DNA of 64,000 bases from Cerasicoccus arenae. Lineage in GTDB: Bacteria > Verrucomicrobiota > Verrucomicrobiia > Opitutales > Cerasicoccaceae. The translations under genes were made by a program, and so were the position numbers. Positions 7,505 through 17,386 of the stretch are shown here, piece after piece. Location of the stretch: positions 1-64,000 of the forward strand of contig NZ_BMXG01000019.1 in assembly GCF_014651635.1 (NCBI RefSeq). The letters run 5' to 3'. The notes below the pieces were generated by a model, which worked only from the letters and a program-made list of their open reading frames with translations, did no database searches and had not been told where the DNA came from. Within the stretch, counting starts at the first letter, position 1. Every line of letters begins with the position of its first letter.

Positions 7505-8665
7505 CTACTTAGTCTTTGCGGGTTCAGCCTTCATGAAGGTAAACGGCTTGGCTTCGACGAATTGCTCGGCGGCATTGCCGGAATAGTAATGGCCTCCAGC
7601 AATCGGCAGCTTCTTGGGCTTGGCGGTCTTGGAGAAATCCATGTCCTTCAACGGAACCCAAAAAGTATCCGGCGTTGTCGAAGAATCAAAAAAGTAGACC
7701 ATGTTCGCTTGGTCCGCGACCGTGCGCCAAAGCGTTGAAGCGATATTGGGCTGCCCCGGCGTCACAATACCGAGCGGAACACTCACGCTGCGAATGACTG
7801 AAAGCGTCTGACCAACCGCCTGATGAGCATAGGTCTGGTTGGGGACATCAGCGATATAGCTCGAATCCAATTTTTTGGTCACCGCATCCATAAAGAATGA
7901 GGCGCGGACATAGCGGTCAGCCGCACTGTTGGTTCCTGGCAGGAATGACATACCACCGATTTTATTCCAATAGGTATCGAGGGCAAGCTGCTGATCGTAG
8001 ACCGGTGAGTTGGTCATAACCTTGTATTCCTTCCCGTGATGCACCGTCAGCTTACCGTTCAGATATTCGAAGATGGCGGAGTCCCCACTCGGATCAGAAA
8101 CGGATAGGTGTAGGGTAGCAGCTGAACCATTGGGAAGCTTCGGAGCTACAATGCGTAACGGCTTCTCAGTCAGACCATCGACGACTTCGTTGACGTTGGC
8201 ATAATTATCAAGGACATATTGCGCCCACAGGCCAATCGACAGGGGTGGATTCTTTGTATCATCTCCATACTCGGCTTCTGCGAGATACAACATATTGGCA
8301 ACCAGGCCCTTTTCGTTGATCCCATCTGCACTAGCGATATTATAGGCTGAAGCAATCACACTGCCATATTTGGACGTCCAAGTAGGCGAATCCGAGCCAG
8401 CATTTCCGTTGCGTTCCATCCCTCTTGGGAATACCCACAGATCAGTCTCCATATCCTGCATCCAGTCCATACTTCGGCCAGTAATCACCGTACCGTCACC
8501 ACCGACATACATAGCGCGGGTGCAAGCATTGACTAGCGAAGGAGCAAAAATGCTTCCAGTCAGAAAAACTGCGGTGGCAAGGAATGAGATTTTCTTGGCC
8601 TGAGAAAACAATTCGCAAATTATCTCGCGAACGCCTCGGCTGAGTGGGGTGTTGAAAATGTGCAT
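7505..8665 (-). CDS. Secreted linear amide C-N hydrolase (choloylglycine hydrolase family)
   Basis: A 386-residue Ntn-hydrolase of the penicillin V acylase/bile salt hydrolase family. A long basic N-terminus and hydrophobic segment (about residues 27-46) form an export signal ending LVNAC. Cleavage would expose Cys48 as the N-terminal nucleophile. Asp67 in GRSMDWM lies 19 residues later, exactly where this family has Asp20 of the mature enzyme. It should cleave a non-peptide amide, for example an N-acyl amide or N-acyl homoserine lactone, outside the cytoplasm. Bile salts are an unlikely substrate in a free-living bacterium. It is a single gene, convergent with GH20. No Shine-Dalgarno sequence is seen. 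Confidence 0.85.
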   Translation of the reverse strand: MHIFNTPLSRGVREIICELFSQAKKISFLATAVFLTGSIFAPSLVNACTRAMYVGGDGTVITGRSMDWMQDMETDLWVFPRGMERNGNAGSDSPTWTSKYGSVIASAYNIASADGINEKGLVANMLYLAEAEYGDDTKNPPLSIGLWAQYVLDNYANVNEVVDGLTEKPLRIVAPKLPNGSAATLHLSVSDPSGDSAIFEYLNGKLTVHHGKEYKVMTNSPVYDQQLALDTYWNKIGGMSFLPGTNSAADRYVRASFFMDAVTKKLDSSYIADVPNQTYAHQAVGQTLSVIRSVSVPLGIVTPGQPNIASTLWRTVADQANMVYFFDSSTTPDTFWVPLKDMDFSKTAKPKKLPIAGGHYYSGNAAEQFVEAKPFTFMKAEPAKTK

Positions 8666-8879: not shown

Positions 8880-9662
8880 TTATTCAGCAGCTACACTAGC
8901 AAGGGATTCCTTATTGACTGGGAAGCCGATATTTAAGGCGTAAGCTTCTTCAGCAAAAAGTTTAGCGATCGAACGTGCTCCCTGCTCGGAAAGATGGCTA
9001 TTGTCATGCTTTCCCTTAGGGTAAAAATCGCTCTCCCCTGGTTCATAATGCAGGAAAAGTGCCTTAGAACCTTCTTCACCCAAATCATTGAGAAGTTCGC
9101 CACTTGATCGATGCAAATCAATCAACGGAACCTCTAAACTGGATGCCACTTCTTTAGTCGCATTTGGATAATTCCCCAAACTACTTTTAGCCATTCCCTC
9201 CTTGAAATATCGTCGAAAAATGGATGTTACCAAAATGGGATGTGCTCCACGTGAACGTGTTTCATTAACAAATTTCGCAAGGAATTCCTGATAATCCGTT
9301 TCAGAATCCGTGTATACCTTTGGCTTTTTCTTTTTCTGATCGTTATGGCCAAACTGTATGATAACCCAATCACCGGGCTTCAGCACATCCATCACCTTAT
9401 CCCAACGCCCTTCCGCAATAAAGCTGCGCGTACTACGACCTCCAGCAGCACGGTTCTGAACAGTCACACCTGCCTCGACAAACTCAGCTAATAACTGCCC
9501 CCAGCCATGCTCTGGATTGTTTTCTGGATTCGATTTATTGGCCATGGTCGAATCCCCCACCATGTAGATTACCGGTGCCTCCGGTTCTACGACCATATCC
9601 TTGTTACCAAAGAGGCCTTTGCACAGGATCAGGCAAAGTAGCAGTCGAAAGTAGAACTTCAT
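8880..9662 (-). CDS. Rhamnogalacturonan acetylesterase-like SGNH hydrolase (CE12)
   Basis: A 260-residue secreted esterase. The signal peptide covers about residues 1-20 (MKFYFRLLLCLILCKG). The SGNH blocks are in order: GDST with Ser38, a Gly in NRAAGGRSTR, GHND with Asn107, and DNSHLS with Asp220 and His223. This matches carbohydrate esterase family 12, which removes acetyl groups from rhamnogalacturonan or related pectins. ATG 9662 is chosen over a TTG one codon upstream. It is the last gene of a minus-strand group with a pectate-lyase-like beta-helix protein (51-base gap) and a GH57-like protein, which supports a pectin or similar acetylated-uronan role. Confidence 0.85.
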   Translation of the reverse strand: MKFYFRLLLCLILCKGLFGNKDMVVEPEAPVIYMVGDSTMANKSNPENNPEHGWGQLLAEFVEAGVTVQNRAAGGRSTRSFIAEGRWDKVMDVLKPGDWVIIQFGHNDQKKKKPKVYTDSETDYQEFLAKFVNETRSRGAHPILVTSIFRRYFKEGMAKSSLGNYPNATKEVASSLEVPLIDLHRSSGELLNDLGEEGSKALFLHYEPGESDFYPKGKHDNSHLSEQGARSIAKLFAEEAYALNIGFPVNKESLASVAAE

Positions 9663-9713
9663 CAATGTAGCCTAAATGAGTGAGAGAAGTGCCTACGAAC
9701 AGAAAATGAGAAC

Positions 9714-11078
9714 CTACTTCTGATAGTAGCCCTTGGACTTGCCAAATTTCAAATTGTTGAAATTCGTGCCTTGGCCATCCCAATCTGCTACTGGATCGAC
9801 AAAACCGGGATTCAGCTCAGTCGTTTGAAAGAAAAGAGAATCAATCTTCTCAAGTTCACTGCCCTTATCAACGCGGGCTAGGCTTCTGTCACTTGGTGTT
9901 GTCACACCTACAATACTGTTCTTAACAATCACTTTCGCTTCGCCTGCAGACTGTTTTTTGGTTTTTTCCAAGCAAATTTGATGGCCGTCATTGTTTAGAA
10001 TCGTACTATTTTCCACCACAACACTAGCTCGTCCTGTCAGGTAAAGTCCGGATGCACCGCCAGAACCACCACGATGCTTGCTGTATCCAATAAAGCAATT
10101 GATCAACTTCGCATCGCCCCAGATTCGAACGTTACGCTTACTGCCAATAGCTACGCAATTTTCCAAAACCGTATCCGATGATTTCAAATCCCATCCACCA
10201 TCAGTGTGGTCATAAGCGCGGCAATTCAGATAGGTAATATGATGCGTGCCACTTTCGGTCACAAAACCATCTCCATTCCAATACTTGGAACCCTTATCCT
10301 GATAGCTGTTTCGTGCTTCACAATTAATAAACGTGATGTGATGGTCATCGGCAGGACTATTACCCTTTTTGCGGTACTCACCAGGAACAAAGAATGCCAT
10401 GTGAAACGGGTCATTGGAATACTCTTTACCACCGGCATCAGCGAAAACATTTTCGACTTTCACATTATAGTTACCGTTCTGCAAACGCACTGCCGACTTG
10501 GTAAATCCGATGAACTTCGAATCGGTAATTTCAATGTCGTGAGAATTATTTTCCGCACCTTCATTCAAGCCACCACCCTCGAGGAAAATTCCAATTCGAC
10601 AATCATGTACAGTGAAGTTTGAAAATGCCAAGTCCACATTGAGACCACGGGAATAAACGACTCCCTTGTAGTTGTTCACTCGAAAACCATCAAACTCAAG
10701 GTGCGATGCCCCGCTATCAATGGTAATAAATGTGGAACCTTTGGATGGGTTTTCCTTAACGAATGAACTCTTCATCAACGGAAGTCCATCACCCGTATCG
10801 ACTCCGCGGAATGACAAACGATTCCCCTCACTACCGCTCTGCCCAATACGCATAGCGAATGAATCGTAGACACCGCTACCAAAGAGTATGGCATCGCCTG
10901 GTTGCATGTTTTCAATAAAACCTCCAACGACCTCACGTGATCCCGCAGCGGCATTTTCCCAAGAGGAGCCATCGGCCAGCCCGGCACTTTTCGGCAAGAC
11001 GTGATAGTCTGCTGCAAACAGTGAATTAGCCATTAAGGCCGCTGCTACGGATAACAAGCTGAATGAGATTTTTTTCAT
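9714..11078 (-). CDS. Secreted right-handed beta-helix protein, pectate-lyase-like (PL9-like)
   Basis: A 454-residue protein with a clear signal peptide (MKKISFSLLSVAAALMANSL, cleaved near FAAD at about residue 23). The body is a run of parallel beta-helix coils (ENCVAIGSKRNVRIWGDAKL and INCFIGY are examples) with the Asn-Cys and Asn-x-x-I ladder seen in polysaccharide lyases. The stretch TYLNCRAYDHTDGGWDLKSS (about residues 281-300) resembles the family 9 pectate lyase core, where an N-C-x-A-x-x-N-x-D-D-G-x-D pattern holds catalytic calcium. Here the motif reads HTDGGWD, so one Asp is replaced by Gly. It probably cleaves a pectic or other uronic-acid polymer in the periplasm or outside the cell. 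Neighbouring CE12 supports this. Exact family assignment is tentative. Confidence 0.7.
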   Translation of the reverse strand: MKKISFSLLSVAAALMANSLFAADYHVLPKSAGLADGSSWENAAAGSREVVGGFIENMQPGDAILFGSGVYDSFAMRIGQSGSEGNRLSFRGVDTGDGLPLMKSSFVKENPSKGSTFITIDSGASHLEFDGFRVNNYKGVVYSRGLNVDLAFSNFTVHDCRIGIFLEGGGLNEGAENNSHDIEITDSKFIGFTKSAVRLQNGNYNVKVENVFADAGGKEYSNDPFHMAFFVPGEYRKKGNSPADDHHITFINCEARNSYQDKGSKYWNGDGFVTESGTHHITYLNCRAYDHTDGGWDLKSSDTVLENCVAIGSKRNVRIWGDAKLINCFIGYSKHRGGSGGASGLYLTGRASVVVENSTILNNDGHQICLEKTKKQSAGEAKVIVKNSIVGVTTPSDRSLARVDKGSELEKIDSLFFQTTELNPGFVDPVADWDGQGTNFNNLKFGKSKGYYQK

Positions 11079-11179: not shown

Positions 11180-12607
11180 CTATAGCGCCGCTGCTGAAAC
11201 ATTGCTTTCCACGGCCTTTGATTCACCGAAGTATGGCATAGCCATCAGCTCTTCCTCAATCGATAGAATCTGAGTCTTCATAATTCCTGGTGAATAGAGG
11301 GAACGTTGATCCGAAATACCGGCTGCCATCATCGCCTTTTCCAAGGAACTATTAGCCTTCTTCAAATCAGCAATACTCTCTGCTACATTAAAGCGGCCGG
11401 GCGACGTCGGAGCGGGAGGCCAGCGCGAATCTGAAACATAAGCCGAGGTGACTTCCTTACGGGCCTGATCCAAAATTGCCCCCGCTTTCGAAACGGGTTC
11501 AATCACTTCTTGCAGACGCAATACGCCTTGGTAAACTGCTTGGCAGGTTGGATCCAATACACGAGCATGCGAAGTGTTCAACCAAGCGCGCGCAGTACCG
11601 CCATGCCAAGCACATCCGCGTTCAATGGTATTGATTTGGCCGTTGGAGATTTCAATTGCCTCACTTTGATCTATAATTTCGGACGGAGTGGCGAATTCGT
11701 AACCGCATTCAGACGCGAGATTAAGCAAATGTGCAAAGCGTGTCACACTTTCTGGCTCATGTTCGAAGAAACGAGCATAGCCAAACTGTTTGACATAGAA
11801 ATAGGCGCTTGTACCGATATATTCAGCGTCTTCAGCGTAAGGAATCAGGAAATTCCCAGAATCTTCAGCCCGTGTTTTCCAGTCACCGAGTAAGTCTGAA
11901 ATCTCTGACAGCGAAACTGGATCTTTACGGTTACCTTCAGTCGCCCCCATCAAATACCAGAGCATTGGATTCGCGAAGAAATCTACACGGAACAACATTT
12001 TCAGCCCCGATGACGTCTTGGAAACATTCGTCAGGTAACGATAATACTCCGGCTTGTCCTTGATGTACTCAGCGATACGGAAAAGCTTGGTTTTATTGCT
12101 GTGTCCACGCACATCATAATCCAATCCAGTTGCTTCACGGATTTCAGGAAAGCTCAGGAAGAAAGAATCACCATCCATAACCAGAGAGTCGAAACCGGCT
12201 TCCTGAAAAATTTCCGGGAGGAAATCAGCCCAGCTACATTCAGGGTTCCATCCTAAGCGAGGACGATGTCCCGTGTAGCGCTCCCAGGCATCCAGCCCAT
12301 CCTTCAAGCTGGCAACTCCCATCTCGGGACTTAGGTTCGCCAACATAATATGAGTAAATGGTGACCCCACACCTTCAACTTTTCCAGCATCCATCAACGC
12401 CTTCAGTTTGGCCAGAACCTTAGGGCGAGTATCCGCCATTATTTTCAGGGTTTCACCCGAAGCCTCGAAGCCAATCTTCGCATCCGTTTGTTCAACCAAA
12501 TCAAACAGCGGCTCATAAGACTGATCGATCACCCATGGTCGACGAGATGGCTCAAGCTGGCTGTATTGAAGATTTCCGTGAGGTAAAAATAAAATCCGTG
12601 GCTTCAT
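11180..12607 (-). CDS. GH57-like glycoside hydrolase
   Basis: A 475-residue protein without a signal peptide, related to glycoside hydrolase family 57. An N-terminal His in FLPHGNLQYS (His10) is in the place of the family HxH motif. The nucleophile block W-x-P-E appears as GWNPECSWADFLPEIF, with Glu123 as the probable nucleophile, and VMDGDSFF follows. The catalytic acid Asp is expected further on, perhaps in IPYAEDAEYIG. GH57 enzymes act on alpha-glucans or alpha-galactosides by a retaining mechanism. The protein appears cytoplasmic, unlike its secreted neighbours, and is likely the first gene of the GH57, beta-helix, CE12 group (101-base gap). Substrate is not predictable. Confidence 0.7.
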   Translation of the reverse strand: MKPRILFLPHGNLQYSQLEPSRRPWVIDQSYEPLFDLVEQTDAKIGFEASGETLKIMADTRPKVLAKLKALMDAGKVEGVGSPFTHIMLANLSPEMGVASLKDGLDAWERYTGHRPRLGWNPECSWADFLPEIFQEAGFDSLVMDGDSFFLSFPEIREATGLDYDVRGHSNKTKLFRIAEYIKDKPEYYRYLTNVSKTSSGLKMLFRVDFFANPMLWYLMGATEGNRKDPVSLSEISDLLGDWKTRAEDSGNFLIPYAEDAEYIGTSAYFYVKQFGYARFFEHEPESVTRFAHLLNLASECGYEFATPSEIIDQSEAIEISNGQINTIERGCAWHGGTARAWLNTSHARVLDPTCQAVYQGVLRLQEVIEPVSKAGAILDQARKEVTSAYVSDSRWPPAPTSPGRFNVAESIADLKKANSSLEKAMMAAGISDQRSLYSPGIMKTQILSIEEELMAMPYFGESKAVESNVSAAAL

Positions 12608-12808: not shown

Positions 12809-13504
12809 TTAAAAGTAAATTCGCTTAACGTCAATTTGACCCGATACACCTTGCTCATTAGTGATAAACACCAAGGCAGATCGACCAGCCCGTAATGTCC
12901 ATCCTGCAGAATAAACAATGCGCGCACTGTCCGCTTCTTCACTCACCTGCATTGCCATGGCAACATCAAGGCCATCAGCCTTCGAGGGGTCAGACAGCAC
13001 GGTTGCCGAGTCACGAGAATCGACTTTGAATTCATTTTTCCCAAAACGCACATACACCGGATAGCTCGCTAGATTAAAGAATCGATAGGAGCCCTTTTTT
13101 ATTTCTGCTGGAGAATAGTCTAAAGGCAGTATGCGGTATGGATCGTAGCCGGGCCTCGAATCAGGGATAAAAAGAAGGAGGCGCGGACTCCTTGTCATTG
13201 GATTATACCTCGCGATCGTTTCTTTTATTGGTATACCTTGCGCGTCTTTACCGTTGTATTTATAAAAGACCAATGGAACTGGCCCAAAGTAATCAAAAGT
13301 ATTGGACGGTGAACCATTAGGTACAAAGAATTTAACTTCTTCGCCACTTGCATTCTGGAAATACAAATCCTGAATCGTGCGCTTCCAACTGAGCGTTGAA
13401 AACTGCAGACTTACATTTTCCGCAGGATCTGAGCCTTGCCCAAAAAGCGACCCAGCCATCAGCATACAGGAAATCACGATTAAATATTTACCACTAAACT
13501 TCAT
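12809..13504 (-). CDS. Small secreted protein paired with the giant pseudopilin
   Basis: I do not recognise a named family. It is a 231-residue protein with a signal peptide (MKFSGKYLIVISCMLMAGSL, cleavage near FGQG) and a mainly beta, soluble remainder with no further membrane segments. Its start lies only 6 bases after the stop of the 1,220-residue pseudopilin-like gene, so the two are surely co-transcribed. A periplasmic partner or accessory of that protein is the simplest inference. The last residues (VKRIYF) end in Phe, but there are too few beta strands for an outer-membrane barrel. Confidence 0.7.
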   Translation of the reverse strand: MKFSGKYLIVISCMLMAGSLFGQGSDPAENVSLQFSTLSWKRTIQDLYFQNASGEEVKFFVPNGSPSNTFDYFGPVPLVFYKYNGKDAQGIPIKETIARYNPMTRSPRLLLFIPDSRPGYDPYRILPLDYSPAEIKKGSYRFFNLASYPVYVRFGKNEFKVDSRDSATVLSDPSKADGLDVAMAMQVSEEADSARIVYSAGWTLRAGRSALVFITNEQGVSGQIDVKRIYF

Positions 13505-13510
13505 GAATTT

Positions 13511-16500
13511 TTAAATTTCGTCTGATTCCAACCAACGGAATGAAACAACTTCAAAACGGCGACCATAGGTGCTGGATGGCTGAATTAACTCATCCATTTC
13601 GGAAGCATCCTGGGCAACTCCAGGCATTGCCTCTGGAGTGCGCTGCACCTTTGCTTCGCACCACACCTGACTGGTAACTTCCTTGGTTATCGGATTTATT
13701 ACGTCGCCATAGGCTCGAATCGTGAATGTATCTGAGCGAACGGTCAGGAAAGAACCGATCTGTTGAAGGATATCTCCCTGCAATACATAGCCTGGAAAAC
13801 CCATATTAGATCGATCGGTTGATGATAAATTTTCAGGCAGGAAATTCCTGAAATCTCTAAATGCCGTAACCGCCTCACCTGCCACATTTGGGTTGTTTAT
13901 TACATTAACTGCCAACGAAGTGTCTCCACCCAGACTCGGATCGTCTAATGCCGCCTGTAACGCCCCTTTCTTGCTAAACTCATCCGTGCTTAGTCGACGA
14001 TTCACAAAAGACGCCAAACTAAGAAATGGACCTCTCGCCCTAACTTGCTCAACGATGGACTCCGCAAGATCGTCCAACTCCGCAGAAGTCAGTAGACGAT
14101 ACCCCTTCCAAAATTCGGCTTCCGTTGCCTCATCGCTAGCCTTGAAACCTCTACTGTAGGGCCGACTAACTCTTGAGAAAGCAACATCGCTTTCAGTAAC
14201 AATTTCATTAGTTCCTGACGGATCATATACGGGGAAGCGCAAATTTTGGCTACTAGCTAAAACTGCTTTCCAGGCTTCCACTGAAGTCGAGTTCACGTTA
14301 AACGCACCATTAATCCACATTTCGGAAGCAGGCCGATAGATCGCAGACTTAAAATTCTCATCAGCTATGTCTTCTACAACAATCCGATTGTAACGGTCGG
14401 AATCAGAAATATCAGAAGTAATAAATTCCATTCGAGGATTCAGGATATGGTCCGAAAGACTTACCCCTGGGTCATCCAACGTCGCTGCCAGAGTTTCCCG
14501 CCCTTCAGCTGTTCTCGGAATCTCAAGCGTGGAAAAGAAAAATCCATCCCAAATCCGTTCATTCGCCAAATAAGGCACATCAAAATATGTTAACCCCGAT
14601 ACGTTATCAAAATTAGTTACCCGAGTCTGATCCATGGGGATTCTCAAATTAGCGTAAGAATTACCAACAATGTAAGTTGGATCAAATTGATAGCGGCCCA
14701 AATTCGCATGTTGAAGCTGACCTAAAGACATTAAGCGGCCCCGTGGACGTTCAAAGAGCACGACGCTCGCTTGCCCAGTCGACTCAATACTGTTCCCCCA
14801 GTAACCATACTTTACGCCATTATCGGGATCCGTATAACTCTCCGGCTCTTGCTCATTTTGTCCCAGAGACTCGACATCATAGAGACTCAAGTAGCGGCTT
14901 TTTCCATTACCACCGTCCCACCTGGAATTGCTAAAGATCGCTCTATAGTTATTATCGATTAAGTTTCGCAATGAGTCTGTTTCTGACTCAAAACCGCCCA
15001 TCCGCTCAGTCGTTCTCAAAGAAAAAACAAGAGTTTCGAACGAATCCTGAAGCCCCGCTGCCGTCATCGACACAAAACTCGTTTTAAAATTATCAGGCTG
15101 ATCATTACTATCGGCCTCCCAAAGATCCACGATATTGTTGTAAGACTGGCCTGCTGCCGACGAGTTAGTCCAGCTCCTCATTATGCCAAAGTTTTCGTAT
15201 TCGATTTTGATAGTAATCGGAGCATCCACCGCAATGGCCTGCCTAAGCCACTCTTTTTCTTCCGTCGATATCCCCCATTTGGCATGCCAACTGGGTTCTT
15301 TCACGCCTGAAGCCCGAGCTTCTGCAAGGGAAACTGCCCCACTTGTAGAGGCTGGATCTGGAGTATTAGTTTCATCGACTTTATCGAGAGGAAATCTCAA
15401 CCCACCAACTGCCGTCCAATTTGGCTTAACATAGTCTGCGTTTGCCCCCGAATTACTCTCCACTTTACCAAAAGGAGAACCGATAAATGCCTCATGAACT
15501 AGGGTGCCTGGCCCGATATTAAAACTTCCAAGGGAAACTTTTAAAGTCCCCTGCTTATTTGCGTTATGTAGCTCTGCTTGATAAAATTCCACAACCTTTG
15601 TTCCGTCGACAAAGAAAAGTTCTAGTGTAATTTTCGGGCTCAATGTCGAAACAAAGCCAAAGTCATTCGCCCCCATATTTGTGTTATAAGGATTATATAA
15701 AGTGTAAACTGGCTTAAACGTTATTACAGGAACTTTCGCGCCGTCCATTCCGGGTACCAACTCGAATGCATATGTAAGACGAATTTGAGCAACTACCGGG
15801 GTTATCAAACTGGAGGCTTGGTAGTTGTCACCATTTGTGTAGCTAGTCTCTGAAGTATATTGATAAGGTAAACCAGAACTAACATATGGATCAGATTTCC
15901 TCGTCCCATTATGCCAATGTGGCGTAAACATTGCCTCTTCACTCGACTTCCCATCAACCTTCTTGTACGCACCCCGAAAATTAAGGTAATCGTCTTTCAG
16001 TTTACTCCAACTCGAGGCTGGCCAATAATGCTGATAATAATCGCGCAAAATTGCCCAATTAGGACTGCCGCTAACAACGACAGGGTCTGCCACAAAATTG
16101 TAAGGCTCAGGAGTCGTTGGATCGGCTGCAGCCTCATCCGAAGCCTCTTGGTTTGTAAACGCTTGATCTTGGAAATGTTCTTCAAATGAAGTGTAAATTT
16201 CAAAGGCCTGCGTCAAATCGCGCTTCAGCGCCCCATCCTTTACATCCACCAGTAATCCCTTTGACCATGCCGTTAAATCATGGAATCGAGCGCGCCGTAT
16301 GGCACTGAGATCCTCTACATCATCAGACTTCCAGTTAATGTAACCAGAAGACAAATCCATAATGCGGTCTAACCATAAATCATCGGGTGAAAACTTATCT
16401 AGGCCGGCAACCGCGCCCACACCGGTTCGGTTTGCAATTTGGAATGAGCGATTCAGCGTTTTAGGATCATTGCTCGTCGAGGCATCGGTATCCACCACAT

Positions 16501-17173
16501 TCACCAAGGCCTTTGAGTTATCGCCACTGACCCAATAGGCGTAGTGCCCGCTTTCTCCAACACCTTCAACCACGACTTTCTTCACTCGTACAGCCTCTAC
16601 ATCATAGTCTTCTGCAGCACCTGCCAATATTACTGAATCGTTTTCTACCAAAGCCTTCAGAGGGGTAAGGTAATCAGGATTATCTGGGGCAACTCCCTCG
16701 TTCCCACTAACGATCCAGTAAGCCTGCGCAATTTTCTGCTCAGCCGTCAGGGAATCCCAGTCCTGATAGTCTTGCGCCTGCTTAACGGTGTCATCTGCAT
16801 TTTTCGAGTTCCAGATACCCAACCAATAAGGCTGCTCTAGCTGGCTCGCATTCAAGCCACCGGGTTCTAGGAAAATATCCGACCGCGCGGTAACGCGGGC
16901 ATCAGGGCCAGCGATTTTTTGCAGTTCACCCAAAGCAGTCAACATACCCATGTACGCATTCTGGCGGGCCAACAAGAGGTTCTTAGAATGTGTCGTAGAG
17001 GCTAATTCGACCTGCAATAAGGTCGAAATAGAAATAATCAATAGGAGCATGAAACCCATCAAGACAAGAGCGACAATCAGCGCAAAGCCTCGCTTATCCG
17101 TGCACCTAGTGCTAGAGATACCGGATTGCTTCAATGGATTTCGTTTTGGGTTTGCCTGCGAGTAAAGCGACAT
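13511..17173 (-). CDS. Giant pseudopilin-like protein, Verru_Chthon cassette protein A family
   Basis: About 1,220 residues. A short basic leader ends in a type III (prepilin) signal, DKRG|FALIVALVLMGFML (Gly29/Phe30), and a single N-terminal hydrophobic helix follows, then a long helix (QVELASTTHSKNLLLARQNA). The rest is a very large soluble region. Position +5 after cleavage is Val, not Glu. Lack of Glu5 is typical of tip pseudopilins such as GspK, and the C-terminal segment around LDDLAESIVEQVRARGPFLS and FVNRRLS recalls the helix-hairpin region of GspK. The overall pattern matches the Verru_Chthon cassette protein A family. Cassette partners B, C and D are absent here. The frame is open to 17338, but ATG 17173 gives a leader of credible length. 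A secreted or surface assembly role is inferred. Confidence 0.7.
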   Translation of the reverse strand: MSLYSQANPKRNPLKQSGISSTRCTDKRGFALIVALVLMGFMLLLIISISTLLQVELASTTHSKNLLLARQNAYMGMLTALGELQKIAGPDARVTARSDIFLEPGGLNASQLEQPYWLGIWNSKNADDTVKQAQDYQDWDSLTAEQKIAQAYWIVSGNEGVAPDNPDYLTPLKALVENDSVILAGAAEDYDVEAVRVKKVVVEGVGESGHYAYWVSGDNSKALVNVVDTDASTSNDPKTLNRSFQIANRTGVGAVAGLDKFSPDDLWLDRIMDLSSGYINWKSDDVEDLSAIRRARFHDLTAWSKGLLVDVKDGALKRDLTQAFEIYTSFEEHFQDQAFTNQEASDEAAADPTTPEPYNFVADPVVVSGSPNWAILRDYYQHYWPASSWSKLKDDYLNFRGAYKKVDGKSSEEAMFTPHWHNGTRKSDPYVSSGLPYQYTSETSYTNGDNYQASSLITPVVAQIRLTYAFELVPGMDGAKVPVITFKPVYTLYNPYNTNMGANDFGFVSTLSPKITLELFFVDGTKVVEFYQAELHNANKQGTLKVSLGSFNIGPGTLVHEAFIGSPFGKVESNSGANADYVKPNWTAVGGLRFPLDKVDETNTPDPASTSGAVSLAEARASGVKEPSWHAKWGISTEEKEWLRQAIAVDAPITIKIEYENFGIMRSWTNSSAAGQSYNNIVDLWEADSNDQPDNFKTSFVSMTAAGLQDSFETLVFSLRTTERMGGFESETDSLRNLIDNNYRAIFSNSRWDGGNGKSRYLSLYDVESLGQNEQEPESYTDPDNGVKYGYWGNSIESTGQASVVLFERPRGRLMSLGQLQHANLGRYQFDPTYIVGNSYANLRIPMDQTRVTNFDNVSGLTYFDVPYLANERIWDGFFFSTLEIPRTAEGRETLAATLDDPGVSLSDHILNPRMEFITSDISDSDRYNRIVVEDIADENFKSAIYRPASEMWINGAFNVNSTSVEAWKAVLASSQNLRFPVYDPSGTNEIVTESDVAFSRVSRPYSRGFKASDEATEAEFWKGYRLLTSAELDDLAESIVEQVRARGPFLSLASFVNRRLSTDEFSKKGALQAALDDPSLGGDTSLAVNVINNPNVAGEAVTAFRDFRNFLPENLSSTDRSNMGFPGYVLQGDILQQIGSFLTVRSDTFTIRAYGDVINPITKEVTSQVWCEAKVQRTPEAMPGVAQDASEMDELIQPSSTYGRRFEVVSFRWLESDEI

Positions 17174-17386
17174 ATTAATGATTGAAAACTGGGGACTGAT
17201 TTTATCAGAAATTCGCCGTTGGGGGTTGCTATCACATAATGACAGAAAATATTTCGATGCGCGTTTCAGGGTAATATTCTTTAAATCGACGCTCTCGGAC
17301 CTATCATTAGGAATTATCGATACTATCATCGAATCCATCGCCGGATTCGACTCTGGAGTAAGTTAAGCTATTAAACCCGTGTCGAG

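Follow-up and report, generated by a model that had tools for sequence, protein, structure and literature searches.

How the tip of a type II secretion system (T2SS) selects what it acts on is an open question, as is the way in which the Verrucomicrobiota, major degraders of polysaccharides, bind or move large glycans. Tip pseudopilins contact T2SS substrates. In the Bacteroidota, the paired genes for SusC and SusD occur in many copies, each pair dedicated to a substrate and located next to enzymes that degrade glycans, and within the Verrucomicrobiota the mucin-utilization loci of Akkermansia carry pilus-like proteins that are implicated in glycan use. The phylum also has the Verru_Chthon cassette, in which a large protein with a prepilin leader (protein A, TIGR02600), present in several copies per genome, is accompanied by small prepilins (B, C and D). 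Here we analyse a 64,000-nucleotide stretch of Cerasicoccus arenae (contig NZ_BMXG01000019.1 of assembly GCF_014651635.1, positions 1 to 64,000 of the forward strand; hereafter the window), in which a large prepilin-leader protein (the giant; window copy P0001) is encoded next to a small exported protein (the partner; P0002). The two form a conserved unit, and the giant is predicted to be a greatly enlarged tip pseudopilin of the GspK type.

Among published systems, a close parallel comes from Verruconatronum alginivorum, also of the Opitutales, for which the accessible part of the report describes a PulG-like pseudopilin in an alginate-induced cluster, with at least 67 homologues in the genome, and a pseudopilin over-expressed on alginate (PMC13274419). 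Like the giants, these proteins form a massively duplicated family in the same order, one member of which lies in a polysaccharide cluster; they are described as PulG-like, and the accessible part of the report makes no mention of giants or partners. It also reports transfers from Cerasicoccaceae for the Opitutales bacterium. The available part of a second paper records enrichment of pilins and pseudopilins in two Verrucomicrobiae populations (PMC12487129). Our literature search of titles and abstracts, with most subscription papers outside its reach, found no paper on giants or partners.

The open reading frame (ORF) of the window giant spans 13511-17338 and would encode 1275 residues from its first ATG (17338), while the start at 17173 gives the protein listed in Table 1. 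At the leader junction, CTDKRG precedes the predicted cleavage site and FALIVALVLMGFMLLLIISISTLL follows it; the protein also has a long hydrophobic stretch. The partner, which carries a Sec-type N terminus by eye, follows after 6 nt. A sequence-only reading of this DNA had already placed both genes, the short gap and the 231-residue partner, and had remarked on the missing Glu at +5 and a length about four times that of GspK, all of which held. No Pfam family matches either protein at E ≤ 1, and the sole NCBIfam match of the giant is GspK, which scores 13.5 bits (cut-off 130) over residues 28-78. A plasmid search with the giant returned no match and PDB sequence searches with it gave nothing useful; with the partner, sequence comparison to the PDB returned low-scoring rows only (designed ankyrins, a plant photosystem subunit), which we treated as chance.

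The same reading had taken the giant to stand alone, which proved wrong. Searching the host genome (4.13 Mb in 63 contigs, rated 97.6% complete) with the window giant yielded 49 matching pieces, which we grouped into 19 full loci and one short remnant. All 19 giants, 961-1316 residues long as called, have a leader without Glu at +5, and all 19 are followed directly, on the same strand, by a partner of 218-250 residues at a distance of -34 to +21 nt; gaps this short or negative suggest translational coupling. The giants are 25-35% identical to the window copy and at most 53% identical to each other. Profiles built from other genomes only recognised every one of the 19 giants and every one of their partners, the latter at E values from 7.8e-26 to 1.6e-54. 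One giant of only 961 residues is very divergent and has still retained its partner (L091:8612-11494). The remnant (C9:130290-130421, minus strand) is a short antisense piece of a giant C terminus, corresponding to residues 1122-1165 of P0001, just upstream of an intact giant, and is a sign of copy turnover.

We then looked for the pair in other Verrucomicrobiota, as the sequence-only reading had proposed, and found its adjacency conserved across genera. A single-sequence scan of public genome contigs found no relatives, but a contig scan with a pattern taken from the alignment at the C-terminal signature (Table 1), G[AG]FN[VI]NS[TSV]S, returned at least 578 stretches, at least 565 of them relatives, from which 79 loci were retained. 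Their carriers include Opitutia, Akkermansiaceae, Luteolibacter, Haloferula, Roseibacillus, Rubritalea, Coraliomargarita, Cerasicoccus and a single genome with the label Kiritimatiellota. Glu at +5 is absent from all 82 family rows with a recognisable leader pattern (94 rows inspected). These loci hold 83 giants, of which we set aside the one in L193, with no more than 276 nt of contig left downstream, and one half, the first, of a split giant in L166. Of the remaining 81, 73 have a partner on the same strand within 1.2 kb downstream, as judged with the own-genome partner profile. This is a stop-to-stop count; an ORF-based one gave 70, having overlooked partners that begin at distant start codons. 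Giant and partner lie within 40 nt of each other in 68 of 70 measured pairs. No partner match occurred in 166 control windows, two per giant, taken upstream and antisense downstream and in some cases cut by contig ends. Together with the complete pairing in the host genome, this supports the earlier view of the partner as dedicated to the giant.

The association also holds when the partner is taken as the starting point: at least 51 of its best 55 matches outside the host genome adjoin a giant. Among 36 genomes of relatives, searches found giants in at least 27 and partners in 17, and a survey of the phylum found partners in at least 32 of 193 genomes; about 14 candidates were scored per genome, and this figure and the per-genome counts are lower bounds. 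Some genomes carry two partner-family genes in tandem (G078:C1:2419573 and 2420291; G205:C6:90137 and 90937; G200:C2:118238 and 119027).

Giants and partners have also diverged in step. Among the 19 paralogous pairs, giant and partner distances are correlated with a Mantel r of 0.75, a value reached in 0 of 20,000 permutations, and among 64 pairs elsewhere r is 0.87 (0 of 5,000 permutations as high). Species history does not explain the co-divergence of the 19 pairs, because all of them are in one genome. These results support the conclusion that giant and partner are a conserved unit across genera whose members diverge together.

To place the giant structurally, we modelled its mature form of 1191 residues with AlphaFold2, using 75 sequences from the window and named loci. 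The model (predicted local distance difference test, pLDDT, 84.9; predicted template-modelling score, pTM, 0.88) opens with a 58-residue helix. VIA-align, used for a second look at the Foldseek candidates, ranked three chains at the top, 9a1f_T (Z 11.5), 3ci0_K (Z 11.0) and 5vtm_X (Z 10.8), far ahead of the following row (Z 4.5). The second is E. coli GspK and the third XcpX, and we take chain T of 9a1f, an XcpGHIJK pseudopilus model, to be the GspK subunit. The alignments cover 220-253 residues at a root-mean-square deviation of 3.1-3.3; 236 of the 280 residues of 3ci0_K are matched. Because the aligned residues are spread along the whole giant, it looks like a GspK chain opened by large insertions. 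Rows below GspK are mostly beta-sandwich domains placed on model residues 387-696 at Z ≤ 4.5; these matches, to Ig-like (immunoglobulin-like) or beta-sandwich domains, are too weak to assign a fold to the insert. The predicted fold thus agrees with the earlier suggestion of a very large GspK-type tip protein. For the GspK-like C-terminal part that the same reading had seen, the predicted structure lends support and the sequence profiles do not, the NCBIfam GspK match being confined to the N-terminal residues given above. Compared with GspK and XcpX, the giant shares the leader without Glu at +5, the long N-terminal helix and, in the model, the fold over most of GspK; it differs in its length, in the extra beta region, in its 19 copies, in having a partner that is not a pilin and in being encoded away from the T2SS-type operon.

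The partner was modelled by AlphaFold at pLDDT 90.8 as nearly all beta except for the signal helix. The model has two beta-sandwich domains. PepT2, in its extracellular two-domain part, is the best fold match (Z 12.3), and PepT2 or PepT1 chains fill the top seven rows (Z 10.7-12.3); single Ig-like or transthyretin-like domains also matched. We read the partner as a predicted tandem Ig-like protein, with no transfer of function from PepT2. No PapD-like chaperone was present among the best 50 fold rows listed.

Table 1. Positions, in window coordinates, of the giant, its partner and the minus-strand genes that follow them.
Feature	Position	Strand	Basis or remark
Giant GspK-like tip pseudopilin (predicted)	13511..17173	-	1220 aa; family of 19, AlphaFold model, GspK/XcpX structural match
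Prepilin leader, 29 residues, ending at predicted G/F cleavage site	17087..17173	-	Val at +5 in place of Glu
Extra beta region inserted in GspK-type chain (predicted), model residues ~387-740	14867..15928	-	weak structural matches, limits approximate
Signature GAFNVNSTSVEAW in conserved C-terminal part of giant	14270..14308	-	largely invariant in family alignments
Partner, 231 aa, two Ig-like domains (predicted)	12809..13504	-	AlphaFold, fold searches, kept beside giants
GH57-like glycoside hydrolase, 201 nt past partner	11180..12607	-	Pfam PF03065, E 5.8e-16
Right-handed beta-helix protein	9714..11078	-	Pfam PF13229, E 2.4e-7
GDSL/SGNH esterase	8880..9665	-	Pfam PF13472, E 6.4e-16
Choloylglycine-hydrolase-like protein, last of minus-strand run	7505..8665	-	Pfam PF02275, E 1.3e-41; gap 214 nt

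In the window, four further minus-strand genes follow the partner (Table 1), separated in order by gaps of 201, 101, 48 and 214 nt, and a glycoside hydrolase (GH) gene of family GH20 lies past this run on the opposite strand. Three of the four have counterparts beside pairs elsewhere. An 81% identical homologue of the GH57-like gene adjoins another pair in a congener (L282), and two beta-helix homologues (28% and 33% identical) lie near the pair in the orthologous locus L281. The esterase is found directly 3' of the partner in two of three close orthologous loci (L124 and L281; 63% and 66% identical to the window copy), at gaps of 2 and 5 nt, and in the third, L123, no GDSL esterase directly follows the partner. 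This recurrent neighbour is a second respect in which the pair is not stand-alone. Whether the choloylglycine-hydrolase-like gene is a member of the unit is uncertain.

Polysaccharide-related genes recur around the pairs. We tallied Pfam families among neighbours of the 19 pairs and of 16 random control regions, considering in each case the 25 most frequent families, with single matches shown for neither set. For the pairs, where the tally took in 108 proteins at distances up to 3.8 kb, these include GH1, F5/8C and LacI (4 each), AraC, beta-helix and polysaccharide deacetylase (3 each) and GH5, GH16, GH39 and GH57 (2 each); for the 115 control proteins, the 25 leading families contain no GH family. 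In other genomes, 107 of the 118 nearest-neighbour proteins were scored, the longest being left out, and this tally, made without a control set, gave seven sulfatases, three GH2, three GH10 and two acetyl xylan esterases. The neighbours also follow the giants: of 170 locus pairs, 18 have a neighbour family in common at up to about 7.4 kb, and their giants are more similar to each other than those of the rest, with a distance as low in 0 of 10,000 label permutations. This sharing is carried by three clades of giants. In the first (L092, L093, L094), GH1 and GH16 occur together, downstream in two loci and upstream in one; a GH5 is common to L086 and L087; and in the clade of L080, L083 and L082, a GH39-like protein occurs in L080 and L083, and a CBM9-type protein in L080 has an unnamed homologue in L082.

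A few other genes were seen near individual pairs. By eye, ExbB/ExbD-like genes lie near pairs at L081:242-1929, L082:14607-15812 and L281:16259-17545 (the congener locus orthologous to that of the window), and TonB-like genes in L081, L084 and L086; a constant TonB/ExbBD neighbourhood was rejected, as these occur in few loci only and similar genes are present in control region L111. Two paralogous secreted proteins that overlap as called and share a common block lie beside the pair at L080:3971-7125, and a transposase gene (HTH_Tnp_1) is found about 7 kb from a pair at L083:18891-19154.

That the machinery for such a protein is encoded elsewhere, as the earlier reading had assumed, agrees with the genome. 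A T2SS-type operon is located at C6:60-70 kb, with best NCBIfam matches to GspI, GspK, GspD, GspE and GspF, all below the curated cut-offs, and with two genes of no clear family between GspK and GspD, at the L and M positions. Pilus-type ATPases and a platform protein are encoded at C1:167-173 kb, and the genome further has one match to prepilin peptidase (Peptidase_A24), three secretins and 42 N_methyl pseudopilin matches above cut-off, scattered over the genome. The giants are not encoded in the gsp operon beside GspI/GspJ, and that operon has its own GspK, of 392 residues, which scores 105 bits against NF037980 over model positions 1-298 of 307.

Our preferred interpretation, which we hold only a little more readily than we doubt it, is that each pair is a tip module, dedicated to a polysaccharide locus, of a type II secretion or type IV-like pilus machine. 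The prepilin peptidase would mature the giant, and a pseudopilus assembled from small pseudopilins common to all pairs would then carry it at its tip, where the ordinary GspK otherwise sits. The partner would fold outside the cytoplasm and bind the giant's head, and the assembled head may contact the polysaccharide directly or, alternatively, enzymes that the same locus encodes for secretion, such that one machine could be re-targeted to many substrates by swapping tips. We infer this arrangement, with the giant on the pilus, the partner on its head and the head on glycan or enzyme, by analogy with the GspK family.

Several observations weigh against this interpretation. Six giants forming one well-supported clade have no partner (L175, L181, L189, L190, L198 and L199); they make up all but one of the seven giants without a partner in the tree, belong to genomes assigned to Akkermansiaceae, Verrucomicrobiaceae or only to Verrucomicrobiota/-ae, and are possibly a distinct version of the system. 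The identification with GspK comes from a predicted model and a second-look aligner, and Foldseek against the PDB gave nothing significant for the giant (best E 0.03). By sequence, in NCBIfam, in Pfam and with a profile of 15 GspKs taken from the host and related genomes, the leader is all that links the giants to GspK: that profile aligns with them over its first ~82 columns only, they score 13.5-22.3 bits against NF037980 (cut-off 130), in the leader only, and Pfam T2SSK (PF03934) matches no giant, although it also misses the operon's own GspK. Failure of the GspK models is weak evidence in this lineage, because the operon's GspK, GspD, GspE and GspF also fall below cut-offs; what tells is that the operon GspK aligns with its model along all of it, and the giants in the leader alone. 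As for the neighbourhoods, LacI is similarly common in controls (four near pairs versus three), and LacI regulators were dropped as a hallmark of the pairs; some of the 19 loci lie near housekeeping genes (G6PD in L077, others by eye). For these two reasons the linkage to polysaccharide genes is a tendency and not a rule. The genome moreover seems rich in polysaccharide genes, and block duplication could partly account for the common neighbours of sister giants.

The strongest competitor, which we consider unlikely but worth keeping in view, is that each pair is a T2SS tip that recognises and exports only the neighbouring enzymes, with no binding of polysaccharide. The GspK-like predicted fold, the T2SS-type operon and the substrate contacts of tip pseudopilins all fit such a cargo selector, as does the fact that the enzymes beside the pairs differ between clades of giants and agree within them. 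On the other hand, some 900 extra residues would seem more than cargo recognition needs, and some of the linked genes, those for GH1 enzymes and for regulators, seem by eye to encode cytoplasmic proteins. We favour, though not strongly, a glycan-binding head at the cell surface over pure cargo selection.

Less probable still, and in our estimate rather improbable, is that the giants are surface adhesins at the tips of type IV pili, serving attachment to particles or cells, the copies diversifying for adhesion, with the partner as a dedicated periplasmic chaperone. The pilus-type ATPases and platform protein on C1 and the two Ig-like domains of the partner could serve this purpose, but it leaves the matching polysaccharide enzymes kept beside sister giants unaccounted for, a chaperone would not need such close co-divergence unless it were pair-specific, and among the own-genome loci fetched only L091 has an N_methyl pilin match in the vicinity of its pair (C12:59285, at a distance of about 6 kb).

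The sequence-only reading had seen in the pair a reduced, two-gene Verru_Chthon cassette, that is, a remnant of A-B-C-D that kept A and gained one partner. The giant does resemble protein A in size and leader and has several copies per genome, and TIGR02600 gives weak leader matches in the host genome (≤ 27 bits against a cut-off of 332.3, ending at or before profile position 61). Its observation that the usual cassette partners are missing stands: no window ORF of 60 residues or more has a GF[TS]L.E-type leader, hence no small prepilins B, C or D were found there, and the only N_methyl match on the contig, also the nearest, is at C19:77466, outside the window. B, C and D did not turn up just outside, nor is the small protein absent beside homologues in all relatives, the two findings that the reading had named as fatal to its proposal of a two-gene unit. 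The cassette origin itself was not supported. Aligned by hhalign with seven cassette A proteins, the giant family shares 68 leader columns and nothing more; cassette A is above cut-off in 2 of 144 phylum genomes, against partners in at least 32 of 193 (the two surveys differ in sample and in caps). Five of eight cassette loci fetched (L222-L226) have two or three small prepilins beside A, while L227-L229 have one or none in simple gene calls, and in all eight no called gene matches the partner profile. With leader-only alignment, no B, C or D and a tandem Ig-like partner that is not a pilin, we find no support for the giant as a cassette member or remnant, a descent that now seems very hard to sustain, and the pair fits better as a family of its own, larger than the cassette and with links to polysaccharide genes. 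In one true cassette (L223:5958-12182), the called A gene encodes 2074 residues, of which ~700 extra N-terminal residues resemble a separate secreted protein.

Selfish or neutral amplification, by which the pairs would have spread as duplicating units in a polysaccharide context that is incidental in a genome so rich in polysaccharide genes, has in its favour the high copy numbers, the housekeeping surroundings at some loci, the degraded remnant and the transposase gene at L083:18891, but we give it almost no credence, as the giants are old and divergent yet keep their partner in 19 of 19 cases, the 25 families listed, of 168 in the neighbourhood of the pairs, include none of transposases, and neighbour families track giant clades in rearranged order.

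More widely, and as a tentative proposal that we rate below the tip-module interpretation itself, Verrucomicrobiota may deal with many polysaccharides by exchanging tips on one pseudopilus, from a library of giant GspK-type heads, each with its own co-evolved extracytoplasmic partner and enzyme set, in a role like that of SusC/SusD in the Bacteroidota. The components would be quite different, since neither protein has a Pfam match to a TonB-dependent receptor or to SusD and the unit here is made of a pseudopilin and a tandem Ig-like protein. If the tip-module interpretation is true, a multi-copy, substrate-linked module served by one machine would make both of the questions with which we began, glycan handling in this phylum and selection by the type II secretion tip, testable pair by pair, and it would provide a role for hundreds of giant unnamed proteins, the family having at least 565 relatives.

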